This document shows positions 30,075-60,252 of a stretch of 64,000 bases of DNA, piece by piece; positions within the stretch are counted from its first letter, which is position 1, and each line of letters opens with the position of its first letter. The stretch comes from Flavobacterium celericrescens (GTDB lineage: Bacteria > Bacteroidota > Bacteroidia > Flavobacteriales > Flavobacteriaceae), in contig NZ_JAAJBV010000001.1 in assembly GCF_011392075.1 (NCBI RefSeq), positions 62,001 to 126,000 of the forward strand. Reading direction: 5' to 3'. The notes under the pieces were generated by a model. It was given only the letters and a program-made list of their open reading frames with translations. It did not search any database and was not told the origin of the DNA. The translations under genes were made by a program, and so were the position numbers.

Positions 30075-30701
30075 TCAATTAGGGATTGCGCAGACAAAGA
30101 TATAATCTTCTACAGAATAAAAATGAATATTAAACTTTTCTATTTGCTTATTAAATTTTAACTCAGCAGCACATGTAGCATCAGATAAGTCAAATTCATC
30201 TTCGAAAATATGATTAGGAAAACTTATTCCTTTTTCGTTTTTTATTTTAAATATTGCTTCTTTTATTCCCCAAACAACTGTTGCTTTTTGTAATTGTTGT
30301 TCTTTAGAAATATTTGCTAAATGTTTAATATTCATAAATCTAGGTGCGATTTTCAAAGTTTTTTCTTTGAGTTTTTCTAAATCAATTCCCATCAATTCAT
30401 CACTAATACAAATACATGAAAATTCATGCGAATGCGAAATAGAGATGTTTTTTTCATCACTCAAATGCGGTTTTCCGGCTTCATCATATGTTAAATCATA
30501 ATCGGTATAACCCAAATGTTGTAGTAACATTCGAACGGCTAAAAATCCTCTTTGATGGGCTGATGATTTCATCCCTTCTAAACGAAAAAGTGATGTATCT
30601 TTTAACGAAACGGCTCTAAATAACGAAGTTACGTCTTCGGTGATATGCCAAAAGTACGCCGTTGTGGTTTCGGTAATATGAATAATTTTATGTAAAGGCA
30701 T
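30075..30701 (-). CDS. 4'-phosphopantetheinyl transferase (Sfp-like)
   Basis: 208 residues. Sfp-type motifs: KPHLSDEKNISISHSHEF, MGIDLEKL (Mg2+-binding GIDLE) and VVWGIKEAIFKIK (WxxKEA). It transfers phosphopantetheine from CoA to carrier proteins. First gene of the minus-strand operon that continues with GGGPS, pnuC, the kinase and arfB. Divergent from ahcY. Confidence 0.9.
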   Translation of the reverse strand: MPLHKIIHITETTTAYFWHITEDVTSLFRAVSLKDTSLFRLEGMKSSAHQRGFLAVRMLLQHLGYTDYDLTYDEAGKPHLSDEKNISISHSHEFSCICISDELMGIDLEKLKEKTLKIAPRFMNIKHLANISKEQQLQKATVVWGIKEAIFKIKNEKGISFPNHIFEDEFDLSDATCAAELKFNKQIEKFNIHFYSVEDYIFVCAIPN

Positions 30702-30762
30702 TTATATTTTGTTGTTTTTCAAACCATTAGAAAGCTAAACAATTCACAAATTAATAGAATTC

Positions 30763-30795
30763 TTTGAAAAAATAAAAAGTTATTTTGTAATTTTG
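30763..30795 (+). promoter_or_regulatory. Probable ahcY promoter
   Basis: TTTG (30763-30766), 21 bases, then TAATTTTG (30788-30795), an exact -7 element. The start codon follows 37 bases later. Confidence 0.6.
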
Positions 30796-30832
30796 CGCTC
30801 TAATTTTTAGAATATACAAATATACATAATAG

Positions 30833-54064: not shown

Positions 54065-55081
54065 TTATTTGTTGTTTTTCCAAATAAAACCGTCTAATAA
54101 ATAGTGCGTAAATTGTGGAACCGTAAGTAATGGAACTAAAAAGAATTGCCATTTGAAAGCATCGATTCCAAGGTTAAAATTCTCGTTCCAAACAAAAATT
54201 TCCCACAAATATTCTTCAGTAAAAGCAATTCCGAGTAGAATTAAAACGAAGAAAATAGCTCCTTTACTGTTTTTAAAATGAAATAATTCGCCCATTTCTT
54301 CTTTGGGTTTTGAATCGATTTCTTTTAAATATATTAATGCCATGTATGGAATTCCGTGAGAAACCACATTTAAGAGTGTAAAAACTAAATCATTATTAAA
54401 ATATACAATTCCAAAAAACCATGATAGTAAAGTTCCAACAATTATCAGGTTTTTTGGAATATTAAAATAGCTGGTTTTCAAATAAAGATAAAGTGTTCGA
54501 CATAAATAATATGCCACGATAAGAACATAAATTACAGTTGAAACTTGAATTAAAAACTGGCTTTCGTATCTAAAAAACTCTTTTTCTACAAACCAATTAA
54601 AAGCTCTTGGCGAAGAAAAAAACCAATACAACATTGGATAAATAGTTGCGGTGTAGATTATTAAAGCATCTGAATATCTATTTATTTTTGTTTTTTCTTC
54701 CTTCCTTGCATATAATCTAACAAAACCATACTGCTGTCTAATAAAATGAAAAACAGCTACATAAGCCAAAACTGACCAAAATACAGAGCTCCCAAAACCA
54801 AATAAAAACAAACCAATTATAAAACAAATTATTGGCAATCCAATGTAAAGTTTTTTTCTTCTTTGAAATTCGGATTTTACGAAGTACGTTTTGAAAAGAG
54901 TCGAATAAACGTGCGCTACATCAATAAAAACAATCAAAAACAACCAAGTATAAAAAGAGTAATCTTCTTGAATTTCGGATAACCAATCTTGAAAAACGAA
55001 GACAATTCCCAAAACAAAAAATGCTGGGAAAAGTATCAACCAAAAATCGGTTTTTGATTTATGAATCCAAGGTTGTTCCAT
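54065..55081 (-). CDS. Polytopic membrane protein, last gene of the AdoMetDC-like operon
   Basis: 338 residues, about nine membrane segments, family not recognised. Conserved-looking polar residues in or near the membrane include DVAHVYSTLFKTY, FHFIRQQYGFVRLY, VSHGIPYMALIY and FTHYLLDGFIWK. The repeated His beside helices suggests a metal- or heme-dependent membrane enzyme (inference). Overlaps the Tat flavoprotein gene by 23 bases, so expression is coupled. Confidence 0.75.
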   Translation of the reverse strand: MEQPWIHKSKTDFWLILFPAFFVLGIVFVFQDWLSEIQEDYSFYTWLFLIVFIDVAHVYSTLFKTYFVKSEFQRRKKLYIGLPIICFIIGLFLFGFGSSVFWSVLAYVAVFHFIRQQYGFVRLYARKEEKTKINRYSDALIIYTATIYPMLYWFFSSPRAFNWFVEKEFFRYESQFLIQVSTVIYVLIVAYYLCRTLYLYLKTSYFNIPKNLIIVGTLLSWFFGIVYFNNDLVFTLLNVVSHGIPYMALIYLKEIDSKPKEEMGELFHFKNSKGAIFFVLILLGIAFTEEYLWEIFVWNENFNLGIDAFKWQFFLVPLLTVPQFTHYLLDGFIWKNNK

Positions 55082-56690
55082 CTACAATTTTATTAACCAC
55101 ATTAATTCCTTGATGAAAAGCTTCTTCAAAAATAGAAATTCCAGCTAAATCGCTATGTGCAAAAAAGATTTTATTTTCAATACTTTTTGAAGCTTCTTTG
55201 AGTAATTTACTTTTTAGAAAATTAGGAACGGGACTTATCATTCCGTGACCAATTCTGTGAATTTCAATCGCACTTATATTTTGTTCAATATCTGGATGTG
55301 CTATTTTTAAATCGGATAAAACTAATTCTTTCCAATGTTCGATTGGTTTTTTCAGCAATTCTTTTCTGTCTTTTTTTATGTCATTTGAACTAAAGCTGTA
55401 ATAATACGTAATGACTTTTTTATCAATAATTTGCTCCAAATTTTGATGCTGATTATAAACGTATCCAAGACCTTTTGCTTTGTAAATTACATTATCCCAA
55501 GACAGCGGAAAACTACCATTATCTGAAATATCTGTCAATGTTATAGAAGCCGTAAACCATGGAGCATAATGAAAATTATGGGCTGTAGATTTTCTTTCAG
55601 GCAGTAAAAACTTATTGATGTATTGCGGCGTTGCAAGAATTACTTTTTCGGCTAGAATAGTTACAGATTCATTTGATTCAGCATTAAAAACAGATACATT
55701 AACTCCATTAGAATTGAGTTGAATGTCATATACTAAATGATTCGTCAACACCTTATTTTCAACAGATGATTTCAAATGTTTTACCAATCTACCATTGCCT
55801 TCTGGCCAAGTTAAAACGGTATCGTCATATTTTTTATTCTCGTGTTTTCTTGCTGCAAAATAGTGAATTCCAGCCCAAGCCGAAACAAACTCGATTCCTA
55901 AACCAAAGTCGTCCTTACAACAATAATCAACATATTCTAAAACTTCATCAGCCGTAAAAGTGTTGTCCAATAACCATTTTTTCATGGTTATTTCATCGAG
56001 TGAATTTAGAGATTCATCTGATGAACAGAATGATTTTGGAATATCAAAAAAGTACTTTTTATCATTTCCTTTTTTCTCACGAAATTCGGTCATTCTTTGA
56101 AGAAATAAGTCTATTTGATTATCAACTTCTTTGGAGTTTCCATATCTCGGAATTAAATCCGTTTGCCAAGAATTTCGAATAAATAAACGTTCGTTTGGAT
56201 CAAAACACAATTGTGTTTCATCAAAAACAGGTAAACTATCTTTGTAATCTATTATGATTTTCGATTCTTCTAAAAAGTTTAAAAGCGCTTTATCTCTTAG
56301 ATTAGGTAAAGGCAAATAATGCGCTGCTAAAGGAAATTTAGAATACTGATTTTCTCCATTTGCAGAATTTCCGCCTAATTTGTTTTCTAGTTCTAAAACT
56401 AAAAAATCTTCAATTCCTTTTTTCTTGAATTGGCGCGCTGCCGAAAGTCCAGAAATTCCACCACCGACAATTAAATAAGGTATTTTAATTTCTTTTGTTG
56501 GTTTTGGAAAATTCTTCAACCACAATCGATGTCCTAAAATATGATTAGTTCCAGTAAGCTTTAATGTAATTTCAATTAATTTGTCTTTGCAAGAAACCAA
56601 CAAACTTGGTACGGCAGCTATAATGGATAAAGCTGCTATTCTTTTAACAAAAGTTCTTCGTGAATTATAATTTTCCCCACTCTTCATCAA
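55059..56690 (-). CDS. Tat-exported FAD-dependent amine oxidase-like lipoprotein
   Basis: 543 residues. Twin-arginine motif SRRTFVK (10-16), hydrophobic stretch, and a lipobox-like LLVSC (Cys34), so probably a folded lipoprotein outside the inner membrane. FAD-binding LIVGGGISGLSAARQFKKKG near 73-92, ENKLGGNSANGEN, and a C-terminal HSDLAGISIFEEAFHQG flavin site, as in flavin amine oxidases and phytoene desaturase-like enzymes. Overlaps the aminopropyltransferase gene by 26 bases. The substrate may be a polyamine-derived product. Confidence 0.85.
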   Translation of the reverse strand: MMKSGENYNSRRTFVKRIAALSIIAAVPSLLVSCKDKLIEITLKLTGTNHILGHRLWLKNFPKPTKEIKIPYLIVGGGISGLSAARQFKKKGIEDFLVLELENKLGGNSANGENQYSKFPLAAHYLPLPNLRDKALLNFLEESKIIIDYKDSLPVFDETQLCFDPNERLFIRNSWQTDLIPRYGNSKEVDNQIDLFLQRMTEFREKKGNDKKYFFDIPKSFCSSDESLNSLDEITMKKWLLDNTFTADEVLEYVDYCCKDDFGLGIEFVSAWAGIHYFAARKHENKKYDDTVLTWPEGNGRLVKHLKSSVENKVLTNHLVYDIQLNSNGVNVSVFNAESNESVTILAEKVILATPQYINKFLLPERKSTAHNFHYAPWFTASITLTDISDNGSFPLSWDNVIYKAKGLGYVYNQHQNLEQIIDKKVITYYYSFSSNDIKKDRKELLKKPIEHWKELVLSDLKIAHPDIEQNISAIEIHRIGHGMISPVPNFLKSKLLKEASKSIENKIFFAHSDLAGISIFEEAFHQGINVVNKIVDGTTLDS

Positions 56691-58179
56691 AATAGCGTAC
56701 TAAAATTTGGTTGTCTAATCGATTTACTTCAACATTACTTGCCTTCATATCACTAGTAAATTGATTAAGCGAATTGAATTTGTAATTATAAAATCGAAGA
56801 TTTTGCGCCTTTCTGTTTACAGAGTTAAAATCAAAACTCGGATTGTTTGAAGTAATAGTAAAACCCCATTCGCCAAAAGATGGTACATAAACATGATAAG
56901 CATCTGTATTAGAAAAAGAAGTTTTTACAGTTTTATTGATACACCAAAATGATTTAGGTGCAAAATAAGGCGAAGTTGTTTGAATCACCACAACGGCATT
57001 TGGTGCTAAAATTTTGGAAAGCGATTGGTAAAAATTAACCGAATATAATTTTCCTAAACTATAATTGGACGGGTCAGGAAAATCAATGATAACCACATTA
57101 TACTTTTTTTGAGCTTCCTTTACCCAAAGAAATGCATCTTGATTAAAAACGCTTACTTTCTTATTTTCAAAGGAATTATTATTCAAATTTTTAAGTACGG
57201 GATTGGTTTTAAATAGTTTGGTCATTCCGCCATCTAAATCTACTAATGTTATTTTTTTAACGGAATCGTATTTTAAAATTTCTCTAACTGCCAAACCATC
57301 TCCACCACCAAGAACCAAAACTTCATTAACAGAATTTGCACTTGACATAGCAGGATGTACCAATGCTTCATGATAACGATATTCATCGGCTGAACTGAAT
57401 TGCAAATTGTTATTCAAATACAATTTATAATCATTTTTTAAATGCGTCAACACGATTCGTTGGTAAGAAGTGGTTTTTGTAAAAACGATATTTTCACCAT
57501 ATAATTTCTCTTCTGAAAAAGAGAGAATCTTTTCGGAAAAAATAAAAAAGCCAACTAAAATTAGAAAAGAGATTATCGCTTTAGCTTTCAAAAAATACAC
57601 TTTCTTGATTTCTTTTTCCAATATAAAACAAAGCGCAATGGCAACACTTAGATTAATCATTCCAAAAAACAAGGAAGTTCTAATAATTCCTAATTGCGGA
57701 ATAAAAACCAAAGGAAATAATACTGAAGCAAGTAAAGCACCAATGTAATCAAAAGTAAAAACGTTAGAAACTAAGTCGCTAAACTTTACTTTGTCTTTTA
57801 GAATATTCATTAAAAGCGGAATTTCCAATCCAACTAAACAGCCTGTAATGAATACTAAAAAATAAAGAATAAACTGAAAGTAAGCCACTTTTTCAAAAAG
57901 CAAGAATAATATAACCGAACTTAATCCGCCAACAATTCCAACTACGATTTCAATTTCGATAAAGATATTGAGTTGATTTCTTTTGATAAATTTTGCAAAA
58001 TATGAGCCTATTCCCATAGAAAATAAATATACTCCTATGATGAATGAAAATTGCTTTACAGAATCTCCCAAAAGATAACTCGCTAACGTTCCTGCGACTA
58101 ATTCATAAATTAAGCCACAAGTTGCGATAACAAAAACTGCAAATAGTAATAGGTATTCAAACCTAAAAAATTTACCCAT
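56665..58179 (-). CDS. Membrane-bound polyamine aminopropyltransferase (SpeE-like)
   Basis: 504 residues. Residues 1-~215 form about seven membrane segments (begin FEYLLLFAVFVIATCGLIYE). The rest is a spermidine-synthase-like fold: QFSSADEYRYHEALVHPA, VLVLGGGDGLAVREILKY, ITLVDLDGG and the catalytic VIIDFPDPSNYSLGKLYS. It would move an aminopropyl group from decarboxylated AdoMet to an amine. The source of that donor is the AdoMetDC-like gene of the same operon. Confidence 0.9.
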   Translation of the reverse strand: MGKFFRFEYLLLFAVFVIATCGLIYELVAGTLASYLLGDSVKQFSFIIGVYLFSMGIGSYFAKFIKRNQLNIFIEIEIVVGIVGGLSSVILFLLFEKVAYFQFILYFLVFITGCLVGLEIPLLMNILKDKVKFSDLVSNVFTFDYIGALLASVLFPLVFIPQLGIIRTSLFFGMINLSVAIALCFILEKEIKKVYFLKAKAIISFLILVGFFIFSEKILSFSEEKLYGENIVFTKTTSYQRIVLTHLKNDYKLYLNNNLQFSSADEYRYHEALVHPAMSSANSVNEVLVLGGGDGLAVREILKYDSVKKITLVDLDGGMTKLFKTNPVLKNLNNNSFENKKVSVFNQDAFLWVKEAQKKYNVVIIDFPDPSNYSLGKLYSVNFYQSLSKILAPNAVVVIQTTSPYFAPKSFWCINKTVKTSFSNTDAYHVYVPSFGEWGFTITSNNPSFDFNSVNRKAQNLRFYNYKFNSLNQFTSDMKASNVEVNRLDNQILVRYFDEEWGKL

Positions 58180-58387
58180 GAATTGCTGCGCTAATAATAA
58201 GAGAAATTCCGATAATTAATGCTGCAAAAACGATAGCCAATGCCGTGTTTTTATTTTGAACAATTTCTTTCCAAGTGTTTTCTGGAGTTATTTTTTCAAT
58301 TATATAATAACTGATTATTAAAACAACAACTCCAACAACTGAGAAAATTAACGCATTTATTATGCCTTTTAATGCAATATATTCCAT
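58172..58387 (-). CDS. DUF350 membrane protein
   Basis: 71 residues, two membrane segments (about 8-27 and 47-68) joined by a polar loop (EKITPENTWKEIVQNKNTA). Matches DUF350 (YjfL-like), usually found as one or two repeats beside polyamine or PspA-type genes. Overlaps the aminopropyltransferase start by 8 bases. Confidence 0.85.
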   Translation of the reverse strand: MEYIALKGIINALIFSVVGVVVLIISYYIIEKITPENTWKEIVQNKNTALAIVFAALIIGISLIISAAIHG

Positions 58388-58393
58388 ATTAAA

Positions 58394-58570
58394 TTATTTA
58401 TGATAAAATCGATTTACTGTACTATGTCCTCTAGAACCTCCTGAATTATATTTTTCTGTAGATTCGCAATCACAAATTCTACTTCCTGTGAAGGAATATC
58501 CTAAAAATAGCATGTAAACAAAAAGTCCAAATGCTATAGCCCATTTATTATTAATGATAAACTGCTTCAT
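58394..58570 (-). CDS. 58-residue membrane protein with CDC motif
   Basis: One N-terminal membrane segment (about 11-30), then SRICDCESTEKYNSGGSRGH and the end NRFYHK. Start chosen at 58570; it then leaves 4 bases to the gene before and 6 to the gene after. Not recognised. The small size, the position and the CDC motif suggest a structural or accessory partner of the operon. Confidence 0.6.
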   Translation of the reverse strand: MKQFIINNKWAIAFGLFVYMLFLGYSFTGSRICDCESTEKYNSGGSRGHSTVNRFYHK

Positions 58571-58574
58571 ATTA

Positions 58575-59801
58575 CTACTCGGTATAAGGTGTGAAATCAC
58601 TATTCTCCCATCTTCTTTGTTCGAAGTTTTTCTTTAAAAAGAAAATTATTGCAAAAATTCCACCTAGAAAAACTAAACTTAACATAAAATTCCATACCGA
58701 TGATTCGTTCCAAACGGCTGTTATATTCATAGTTTGGTTAGAAGTGTCCGTATCTTGTTTAGATGGTATTATTACTAAATGATACTTACCTTGAGCAACC
58801 CCACAGAAATTAAAGGTTGTACTTGTACTTCCTTCGGTCCAACTTTCTCCATCGGTATAACCACTGTAGTATTCTATATCTTTTTGAGCGTATTCTTCTT
58901 CGTTGGTTGCTTCATTTACTAATGAAACTTGTGCGTTTGCCCATGAATTATTTACATCTGAACTAGCTGAAACAATTAAAGGTGCAGGACTTCCTTTTAA
59001 TTCAAAAGAAGGTGAAATGAATTCCTTATTTTTATATTCATCAAAATTCAAAGACGTATACAATACATTTTTCTCCGTTCGACCAATATTAAAAAAGATA
59101 TAAGTTGCTAAAATTAATATCGCAAATGATACAAAAACAAGAAGTGTATTGTAAATATTAAATAAAAAAGGTTGCACAAGTCCAACTCCAGATTTAGATG
59201 GTAGTTGACTTACATTAAAAATCTTTTTTACTTCACTTGAAGAAATATGTTTTCCTAAATAAGTTGCATCATCCTTATCAAATTCCTCAATTGAAATAAT
59301 ATATGGTGGATTAATGTACTCAACCATTTTTACTGGTCTACCACTTATTTCAAACTCATAAAAACCATAAACTCTTGCAACAAAAGCATCGGTATATTCA
59401 TAAAGATTATATGATATTTCATCATGTGTGAGTTTCTTATATTTCCGAGAAACATCATACGATACAGGAATTTCTTCAAGTAAAATCCAATGCCCATCTG
59501 TTTCAGAAAGATATTTTACTTTACCTGATTTTGACATTAATGTATACTCACGCCAATAATAAATGGCATGAGCTCTTTTTATAATTAATCCAACAATTTC
59601 ATAGGTTTCTCCATCGATGATTCCTTTTGTTCCAATTTTTAGAGTAGTATCTTTAGGAACATAATCGTATGCTTTTTCGAATTTCAACTTCGAATTATTG
59701 TAAGTAAAGAAACTATTACAATGTGAACAACCAAAGCTTTTTACTTCAAAACTTGATTCAATAGCAGTATTTTGATTACACTTAGGACAAGTTAATTCCA
59801 T
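58575..59801 (-). CDS. DUF4178 protein with N-terminal zinc ribbon
   Basis: 408 residues. CPKCNQ...FGCSHCNSFF is a four-Cys zinc ribbon (residues 4-31). Two DUF4178-like beta regions follow (LKIGTKGIIDGETYEIVG, YWREYTLMSKSGKVKYLSE). A membrane segment near 213-238, an extracytoplasmic beta domain (about 245-370) and a second segment near 375-396 end the protein. DUF4178 recurs beside SpeD/SpeE-like and DUF350 genes. Starts 2 bases after the AdoMetDC-like gene. Confidence 0.85.
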   Translation of the reverse strand: MELTCPKCNQNTAIESSFEVKSFGCSHCNSFFTYNNSKLKFEKAYDYVPKDTTLKIGTKGIIDGETYEIVGLIIKRAHAIYYWREYTLMSKSGKVKYLSETDGHWILLEEIPVSYDVSRKYKKLTHDEISYNLYEYTDAFVARVYGFYEFEISGRPVKMVEYINPPYIISIEEFDKDDATYLGKHISSSEVKKIFNVSQLPSKSGVGLVQPFLFNIYNTLLVFVSFAILILATYIFFNIGRTEKNVLYTSLNFDEYKNKEFISPSFELKGSPAPLIVSASSDVNNSWANAQVSLVNEATNEEEYAQKDIEYYSGYTDGESWTEGSTSTTFNFCGVAQGKYHLVIIPSKQDTDTSNQTMNITAVWNESSVWNFMLSLVFLGGIFAIIFFLKKNFEQRRWENSDFTPYTE

Positions 59802-59803
59802 AT

Positions 59804-60166
59804 TTATCTTTCTACTTCTATTTGTTTAACAATACTTGCTTCAAAATAAGCTATAAAATCTTTTGCAATACTTCTAACTTTACTAGAATTATCTTGGGAA
59901 TAATTACACAGATAAACATCCATCGTTAACGTATTAATTTCTGGCCACGTATGGATACAAATATGGGATTCTTTTAAACAATAAGCAATCGTAAAACTTC
60001 CGTTTTCAAAAACAAATGACGTATTCCCAACTTTTTCTAATTGATTTTCAAGGAGAAGATTGTCGGTAAAAGCAACAAAACCTAATAAATCTATTAATTT
60101 ATTACTATTTGAAACTTCGAGTGTTAATAATTGATGTAATCCTAAAAGATTGCTTTGTTTTTCCAT
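59804..60166 (-). CDS. S-adenosylmethionine decarboxylase-like (SpeD/SpeH type)
   Basis: 120 residues. AYCLKESHICIHTWPE matches the self-processing site: Ser67 would become the pyruvoyl group, His72 assists processing, and Cys87 in MDVYLCNYS is the proton donor. All key residues are present, so it should be active. It makes decarboxylated AdoMet for the SpeE-like enzyme. First gene of the seven-gene operon. Confidence 0.88.
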   Translation of the reverse strand: MEKQSNLLGLHQLLTLEVSNSNKLIDLLGFVAFTDNLLLENQLEKVGNTSFVFENGSFTIAYCLKESHICIHTWPEINTLTMDVYLCNYSQDNSSKVRSIAKDFIAYFEASIVKQIEVER

Positions 60167-60223: not shown

Positions 60224-60252
60224 AATAAAAAAAGCGAGAAAAATCTCGCTTT
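60224..60252 (-). terminator. Terminator after the ferredoxin gene
   Basis: AAAGCGAGA / TCTCGCTTT with loop AAAA and a T run on the minus strand. The stem overlaps the ferredoxin stop codon. Confidence 0.88.

Follow-up and report, generated by a model that had tools for sequence, protein, structure and literature searches.

What does a set of polyamine genes modify when its aminopropyltransferase is embedded in the membrane? The question is raised by a run of seven genes in Flavobacterium celericrescens (assembly GCF_011392075.1), found in a 64,000-nucleotide stretch of DNA (contig NZ_JAAJBV010000001.1, positions 62,001 to 126,000; hereafter the window). All seven open reading frames (ORFs) were located at 54065–60166 on the minus strand in a single run and encode, from 5' to 3', a SpeD-like S-adenosylmethionine (AdoMet) decarboxylase, a DUF4178 protein, a 58-aa protein, a DUF350 protein, a membrane-fused spermidine synthase homologue (SpeE-TM), a flavin adenine dinucleotide (FAD) lipoprotein exported by the twin-arginine translocation (Tat) route and a transmembrane (TM) protein referred to as the 9-TM protein. 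The ORF coordinates agree with an earlier note on this DNA as to the genes, their place and their spacing, with gaps of 2, 4 and 6 bases followed by overlaps of 8, 26 and 23 bases (the 26-base overlap assumes a TTG start and becomes 23 if the next ATG is taken). We tentatively propose that the operon is a protein-tail aminopropylation system in which the C-terminal lysine of the 58-aa protein is the acceptor.

A conserved lysine ends the small membrane protein

The 58-aa protein (58394..58570, minus strand), the proposed substrate, comprises one TM segment and a short tail ending Y-H-K-COOH, and translation of the window bases places the codons for the conserved Tyr-His-Lys at 58397..58405 of the same strand. 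Neither this protein nor the 9-TM protein matched any family above its cut-off in Pfam/NCBIfam profile searches. Homologues detected by whole-protein similarity were present in 85 of 88 loci collected with the 9-TM protein as seed (a seed-biased set in which six loci, with identical SpeE, are duplicates); 85/85 end in HK and 84 in YHK, and the alignment has a variable middle and a constant ...YHK end. A role as a metal-binding CDC protein was rejected, as the CDC motif is lost in L099–L103 and L114 while the HK end is retained. In PspA-type operons the small protein is replaced by a lipoprotein ending ...GFGK or similar, and at L106 (...SGSHK) and L125 (...RGFGK) the tail is fused to DUF4178; the tail at L116 overlaps a predicted DUF4178 start and is uncertain.

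Some listings of lysine tails are biased, because a final K, in one case preceded by one of a few permitted residues, had been the condition for entry; two unfiltered tests were added. Hydrophobic ORFs between DUF4178 and DUF350 were collected irrespective of their ends at loci with exactly one such ORF, leaving out loci with none or several and those without a recognised DUF4178/DUF350 pair, and K is the final residue in 23 of the 24, preceded by H in 21 and by G in 2. The sole exception comes from L144, where the genes are broken up as frameshifts would leave them. Likewise, a profile search in which the last 12 residues had been removed from model and targets recovered 19 sister lipoproteins, all of which (19/19) end in GK. 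By comparison, 11/271 other proteins of these operons end in K (Fisher p = 6e-25 for 23/24 against this background, relatedness ignored).

A less biased survey, seeded with SpeE-TM, comprised 67 loci, namely the window's own and a further 28, 32 and 6. SpeE-TM was found in 29/395 phylum genomes and in 39/395 class genomes, 8 of which were already counted, the other 31 yielding 32 loci; of 12 full-length plasmid records with SpeE-TM, six were taken, one per genus. With all listings pooled, a K tail was seen in 56/67 loci, and lysine tails occur in Bacteroidota, Pseudomonadota and Gemmatimonadota. HK-ended tails accompany the FAD gene in 27/33 loci as against 2/23 loci without it, a Fisher-tested difference that is confounded by descent. 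The 58-aa protein, which the earlier note had described as a membrane protein and nothing further, is a likely substrate or docking tail.

The last residue of the tail follows the partner enzyme

The final residue of the tail tracks the enzyme beside which it is encoded, being K with SpeE-TM and G, S or A with ATP-grasp ligases. PF03738 ligases were found in 25/326 genomes, 13 matches being strong and 12 weaker; the 13 strong loci (11 plus L118 and L119) were examined and the 12 weaker ones left out. An exported tail gene stands upstream of the ligase in 12/13 strong loci, either adjacent or (L169) one ORF away, while none was recognised at ligase locus L176. These tails end in GG (5), SS (4), GS (2) or HA (1), and in K in 0/12, with only the last residues available for L170 and L172. 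In Escherichia coli, YjfM and YgiB end in GG and adjoin YjfC and YgiC, which are annotated as peptide-spermidine ligases. Furthermore, many lipoproteins of both the SpeE-TM and the ligase systems have a Ser/Arg/Gly-rich tail. Judged from structure formulas, both systems would yield a spermidine-like chain at a protein C-terminus, since the side chain of an aminopropylated lysine is the spermidine skeleton. The window's genome gave no PF03738 match. At L118 and L119, SpeE-TM stands beside an opposite-strand SpeD, an ATP-grasp ligase and a GG-ended tail, so that both chemistries are encoded at one locus. Searches of the open-licence literature for combinations of peptide-spermidine ligase, YjfM, YgiB and DUF1190 returned no paper, and DUF4178 occurs there in a single one.

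SpeE-TM is predicted to face outwards

SpeE-TM (56665..58179, minus strand, 504 aa) consists of seven TM helices and a fused aminopropyltransferase domain, and scores 647 bits against the PRK03612 aminopropyltransferase model (NF002956, cut-off 472). Helix predictions uphold the seven TM segments first noted from the sequence, by which the protein differs from the canonical, soluble spermidine synthase; the membrane domain is N-terminal to the spermidine synthase (SpdSyn) domain, as in SpeD/SpeE-TM/DUF350 clusters. The aminopropyltransferase residues Y269, H270, E271, D366 and D369 are kept in 85/85 sequences. An AlphaFold2 model (predicted local distance difference test, pLDDT, 78.8; predicted TM-score, pTM, 0.56) has seven long helices and one short one followed by a spermidine-synthase fold, and Foldseek matched it to spermidine synthases, the 50 matches shown covering the catalytic domain only.

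The catalytic domain follows seven hydrophobic segments in a set of 117 SpeE-TM sequences. Lysines plus arginines number 2.1 at the N-terminus and 2.3, 3.1 and 4.8 in loops 2, 4 and 6, while they are few in loops 1, 3 and 5 (0.8, 0.2 and 0.4) and number 1.4 after helix 7. Because seven crossings are combined with a charge pattern that places the N-terminus inside, the catalytic domain should lie outside the cytosol. A lipobox pattern occurs near the N-terminus of 14/19 sister lipoproteins; of the five without a match, three are joined to a preceding DUF4178-like N-terminal part, one is truncated where its contig stops and one does have a Cys, which escaped the pattern. Given the lipoboxes on most sister tails and the Tat signal of the FAD protein, the SpeE-TM domain, the lipoprotein tails and the flavoprotein would share one compartment.

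Composition and borders of the operon

SpeD (59804..60166, minus strand, 120 aa) matches PF02675 with 57.8 bits (cut-off 25) and the equivalog TIGR03330 with 50.9 bits, under its cut-off of 75.65, and its closest solved relative is the AdoMet decarboxylase 2iii. Its motif ESHICIHTWPE includes Ser67, the putative pyruvoyl serine, and His72, with a Cys at 87. E66, S67, H68 and H72 are invariant across 59 sequences, and residue 87 is Cys in 46/59. The DUF4178 protein (58575..59801, minus strand, 408 aa; PF13785, 47.4 bits, cut-off 25) comprises in order an N-terminal CxxC...CxxC ribbon, the DUF4178 domain, a TM segment (219–237), an acidic outer domain (8 K+R and 18 D+E between the TM segments) and a second TM segment (371–389). 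The DUF350 protein is of the YjfL type (58172..58387, minus strand, 71 aa, two predicted TM segments; PF03994, 54.9 bits, cut-off 26). Family searches gave no PspA or CesT/Tir match among the seven genes of the operon.

The FAD lipoprotein (55059..56690, minus strand, 543 aa) belongs to the flavin amine oxidoreductase superfamily (PF01593 Amino_oxidase, 50.2 bits, cut-off 19.8). Its reading as a Tat-exported lipoprotein stands, its N-terminal region combining the Tat motif with a lipobox cysteine: R11 is present in 49/49 aligned homologues, the full Tat pattern in 46/49 and the lipobox Cys34 in 45/49. It matches polyamine oxidases (best E 2e-4) and LSD1 weakly, mainly in the FAD-binding part. 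The last gene (54065..55081, minus strand) encodes the 9-TM protein of 338 aa, which has no named family. That it is a membrane protein holds; the number of nine segments given in the earlier note is not firm, as hydropathy finds 7 segments and an AlphaFold2 model lists 12 helices, some too short to cross, this model (pLDDT 58) being too poor to use. In alignments, His 57, 112, 242 and 326 are invariant in 9 sequences and again in 42 (H326 in 41, with a gap in one), and the four His together with D54 and D330 are retained in four distant relatives, which hold more His; the pattern points to a metal or haem site. No solved relative was found, and one distant relative gave a chance-level match only. 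The distant relatives at L182–L187 (about 355–436 aa) carry the conserved His motifs PHFF, WHVVRQHYG, HDxQYH...HH and HYFxDQ, the three that were tried matched no Pfam family above its cut-off, and the group forms an unnamed superfamily of membrane proteins that possibly bind metal.

A terminator-like hairpin (60231..60252, minus strand) after a ferredoxin-like gene and just upstream of SpeD divides that gene from the run; because of this stem, the run probably starts at SpeD, with the hairpin as its upstream border. The scan that located it found 4 terminator-like sites against a shuffle mean of 2.3, a count that is itself not above chance. Downstream, a DUF3050 gene converges on the run. By the 9-TM protein, with 95–96% identity, the organism is close to F. 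sasangense and F. cheniae.

Proposed mechanism and its weak points

We infer the acceptor lysine, catalysis outside the cytosol and each chemical step as follows. SpeD would produce decarboxylated AdoMet (dcAdoMet) in the cytosol, and SpeE-TM would transfer its aminopropyl group to the C-terminal lysine of the ...YHK-COOH tail. The acceptor would most likely be the epsilon amine, which ends a butylamine as in putrescine, and the product side chain, -(CH2)4-NH-(CH2)3-NH2, would be a spermidine skeleton on a protein C-terminus. A role as scaffold or in donor delivery may fall to DUF350 and to the DUF4178 protein, which spans the membrane. In the window's branch, the Tat flavoprotein and the His-rich 9-TM protein may oxidise the product or tailor it in another way on the outward side of the inner membrane; that the pair oxidises the aminopropylated tail is a natural guess. 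These findings are in keeping with the earlier suggestion that a membrane or exported molecule is aminopropylated and then oxidised. More doubtful is the wider idea of two interchangeable caps for an exported, anchored tail, whereby a ligase would join spermidine to a Gly/Ser/Ala end, an outside-facing aminopropyltransferase would build the same skeleton on a C-terminal lysine, and the capped end would in one branch be processed further by the exported flavoprotein together with the His-rich 9-TM protein.

Several points weigh against tail aminopropylation as outlined here. The sidedness of SpeE-TM is deduced from the number of helices and the distribution of charge, not read from model coordinates, and the 58-aa protein, with 5 K+R in its tail versus 2 at its N-terminus, has an ambiguous topology of its own. 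To our knowledge an AdoMet-type donor outside the cytosol is unprecedented, and we know of no route for dcAdoMet across the membrane. Conservation of a C-terminus can also mean that it is a signal for docking or targeting and not a substrate. Moreover, 11/67 loci showed no K tail (L118, L119, L144, L148, L149, L151, L153, L154, L161 and the short contigs L160 and L168), SpeD was recognised in 45/67 loci and not in the remainder, and its usual Cys is replaced by Ser in 12/59 sequences. As to the later step, enzymes of the MAO/PAO/LSD1 kind have a conserved active-site Lys near flavin N5, whereas no Lys of the FAD protein is conserved above 67% in the alignment of 49 homologues; amine oxidation by this protein therefore appears doubtful.

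The alternative that survives best, though rather unlikely, is that a lipid, an envelope phosphate or another small membrane molecule is aminopropylated and that the lysine-ended tail, lying within the SpeE-TM active site or close to it, is a subunit for docking or regulation. SpeE-TM is indeed embedded in the membrane, and sister operons contain PspA and CesT/Tir-type proteins (named by size and resemblance), which Ravi 2024 (PMC11237479) links to membrane state; the same paper speaks of polyamines or of 'aminopropylation of other substrates'. A lipid acceptor, however, does not predict that the last residue of the tail switches from K to G, S or A beside an ATP-grasp ligase.

Polyamine genes elsewhere in the genome

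It appears improbable that the SpeE-TM fusion makes and exports spermidine or a related free polyamine, with the flavoprotein as an outside polyamine oxidase. The SpeD and SpeE folds and motifs are intact and the FAD protein has its weak similarity to polyamine oxidases, but a free polyamine accounts for neither the tail nor DUF4178 and DUF350, and other polyamine genes are found elsewhere in the genome. Such fusions are also said (Li and colleagues, 2019) to have given no spermidine and no complementation, which counts against a free product. The window's genome has one SpeD and one strong SpeE-TM; its two other PRK03612 matches are at E 1e-7 and weaker still, while soluble SpeE proteins in other genomes of the same search reach about 1e-36 to 1e-48. 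Elsewhere it carries a diaminopimelate decarboxylase and, at L181 (contig C8 near 30080–30808), an arginine decarboxylase (ADC)-like gene directly beside a deoxyhypusine/homospermidine-synthase-type gene, both under their NCBIfam equivalog cut-offs. This pair is a probable separate polyamine route, and bulk polyamine synthesis probably runs independently of the operon, because these genes lie elsewhere and no strong second SpeE is present.

No ADC or ornithine decarboxylase (ODC) gene lies within the seven-gene operon; their absence, remarked on earlier, thus holds for the operon and not for the genome, given the ADC-like gene. The impression that the set is unlike ordinary spermidine synthesis is supported by the membrane-bound SpeE, the single SpeD without a strong soluble SpeE, and the ADC-like and homospermidine-type genes elsewhere. 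An ordinary spermidine pathway was accordingly dropped as the principal explanation in view of the membrane SpeE, the other polyamine genes, and the unexplained tail, DUF4178 and DUF350. In one study (PMC10407285), neofunctionalised SpeD-type ODC/ADC genes are tied to genomes without canonical ADC/ODC; such a function for the window's SpeD is disfavoured, judged by genome content rather than residues, as its own genome carries an ADC-like gene.

The FAD and 9-TM genes form an optional module

The 88 9-TM-seeded loci contain FAD and SpeE-TM throughout (88/88 each), with DUF4178 in 86, DUF350 in 86 and SpeD in 85; at L018 the order of SpeE, 9-TM and FAD differs. Among the 67 SpeE-TM-seeded loci, DUF350 was recognised in 56 and DUF4178 in 38, the latter being an undercount: DUF4178 proteins of the PspA type, for example the one at L121 that Pfam does recognise, escaped the profile. 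FAD is present in 35/67 and 9-TM in 26/67, the latter never without FAD. With three candidates scored in each of the 395 phylum genomes, a threshold of E below 1e-25 gave 15 members of the strict FAD family, and 15/15 lie within 0.8 kb of SpeE-TM; the 11 strong 9-TM matches are all inside the same operons. The remaining 12 9-TM matches are one broken 77-aa remnant and 11 distant relatives, and no SpeE-TM neighbour was seen at the six of these 11 loci examined.

The FAD and 9-TM genes are therefore a real, conserved but optional module. The neighbourhood survey bore out the expectation that the last two genes go with the other five as regards linkage and not as regards constancy, since L108 and L113, both Flavobacterium, have the first five genes and lack the last two. 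The same absences (FAD from 32/67 loci, 9-TM from 41/67) would be expected if the two were a separate redox module merely sharing a promoter. We give this little credence, as in the 395 genomes the strict FAD family and the strong 9-TM matches never occur away from SpeE-TM and as both gene orders, SpeE-FAD-TM9 and SpeE-TM9-FAD, are found.

Several loci of the survey have features of their own. At L188 (G419, contig C12 near 371098) the broken 9-TM fragment contains three stops, and its genome gave no SpeE-TM match above cut-off, a probable case of operon decay. L157 and L158 have two SpeE-TM genes each, one with a PspA-type set (lipoprotein, DUF350) and the other with 9-TM and FAD, which suggests two serial aminopropylation steps or two acceptors. 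At L148, L149, L151 and L153, SpeE-TM is preceded by a protein of about 715–750 aa with a peptidase-like HExxH motif, while DUF4178, DUF350 and a K tail all went unrecognised at these four loci. An ion channel gene (PF00520) lies within the SpeE-TM operon of L126 (5508–6302). An apparent 1027-aa SpeE-FAD fusion in Burkholderia (L131) was discarded as a long, GC-rich overlapping frame before a normal Tat FAD gene.

Relation to known systems and significance

Exported small lipoproteins that end in Lys are substrates of L,D-transpeptidases, as in Braun's lipoprotein; that the lysine is such a peptidoglycan anchor, with the polyamine genes acting on something else, is the least probable alternative, for despite the lipobox pattern of the sister tails a search confined to the seven genes gave no L,D-transpeptidase match, the lysine accompanies SpeE-TM and is not seen beside the ligase, and the HK/GK endings appear narrower than an anchor would need.

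The core of the operon is, as had been recognised, of a published cluster type. Li, Kurihara, Kim, Liang and Michael reportedly described, in 2019 (Biochem J 476:2579), clusters of AdoMet decarboxylase, an MFS-SpdSyn fusion and DUF350, and are said to have proposed a non-polyamine aminopropylation; the operon shares with them SpeD, a membrane-fused SpeE and DUF350. The lysine tail, the Tat flavoprotein and the 9-TM protein are not known from those clusters. Ravi 2024 (PMC11237479) describes PspA-CesT/Tir operons with a 7TM-spermidine synthase, DUF350, a lipoprotein and DUF4178. The operon resembles these in SpeE-TM, DUF350, DUF4178 and a membrane-anchored tail protein, and differs in lacking PspA and CesT/Tir, in having the 58-aa TM protein in place of the lipoprotein and in its additional FAD and 9-TM genes; PspA-like genes do stand in sister loci such as L121. 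The same paper mentions a polyamine oxidase in another operon variant. No product of the published SpeD/SpeE-TM/DUF350 clusters was found in the open-licence literature.

Peptide-spermidine ligases (E. coli YgiC and YjfC) are reportedly the subject of Pederick 2023. In E. coli YgiB-YgiC and YjfK-YjfL-YjfM-YjfC, as in the present operon, an exported, Ser/Arg/Gly-rich tail protein adjoins an enzyme of polyamine chemistry, and the YjfC set also shares DUF350 (YjfL). The two sets differ in that an ATP-grasp ligase takes the place of SpeE-TM and the tails end in GG, not K. Aminopropylation of microcin C, which Kulikovsky and co-workers reportedly described in 2014, resembles the proposal as a dcAdoMet-dependent peptide aminopropylation and differs in its soluble cytosolic enzyme, the target being a peptide phosphoramidate. 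Deoxyhypusine on eIF5A likewise places a polyamine-derived chain on a protein lysine; in contrast to the present proposal, an aminobutyl group from spermidine is added to an internal lysine in the cytosol.

The C-terminal lysine rule, its enzyme-linked switch and the FAD/9-TM branch appear to be new: no description of them, and no mention of aminopropyl-lysine under the spelling variants tried, was found in the open-licence literature. From the lysine rule follow a definite candidate substrate, encoded by the operon itself, and an exact predicted mass shift, as a 3-aminopropyl group would change the last residue by +57.06 Da. The switch between K and G/S/A, for its part, ties the SpeD/SpeE-TM/DUF350 clusters to the peptide-spermidine ligases of E. 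coli. If the proposal is true, Bacteroidota, Pseudomonadota and Gemmatimonadota would possess a new deoxyhypusine-like lysine modification at protein C-termini, perhaps outside the cytosol.

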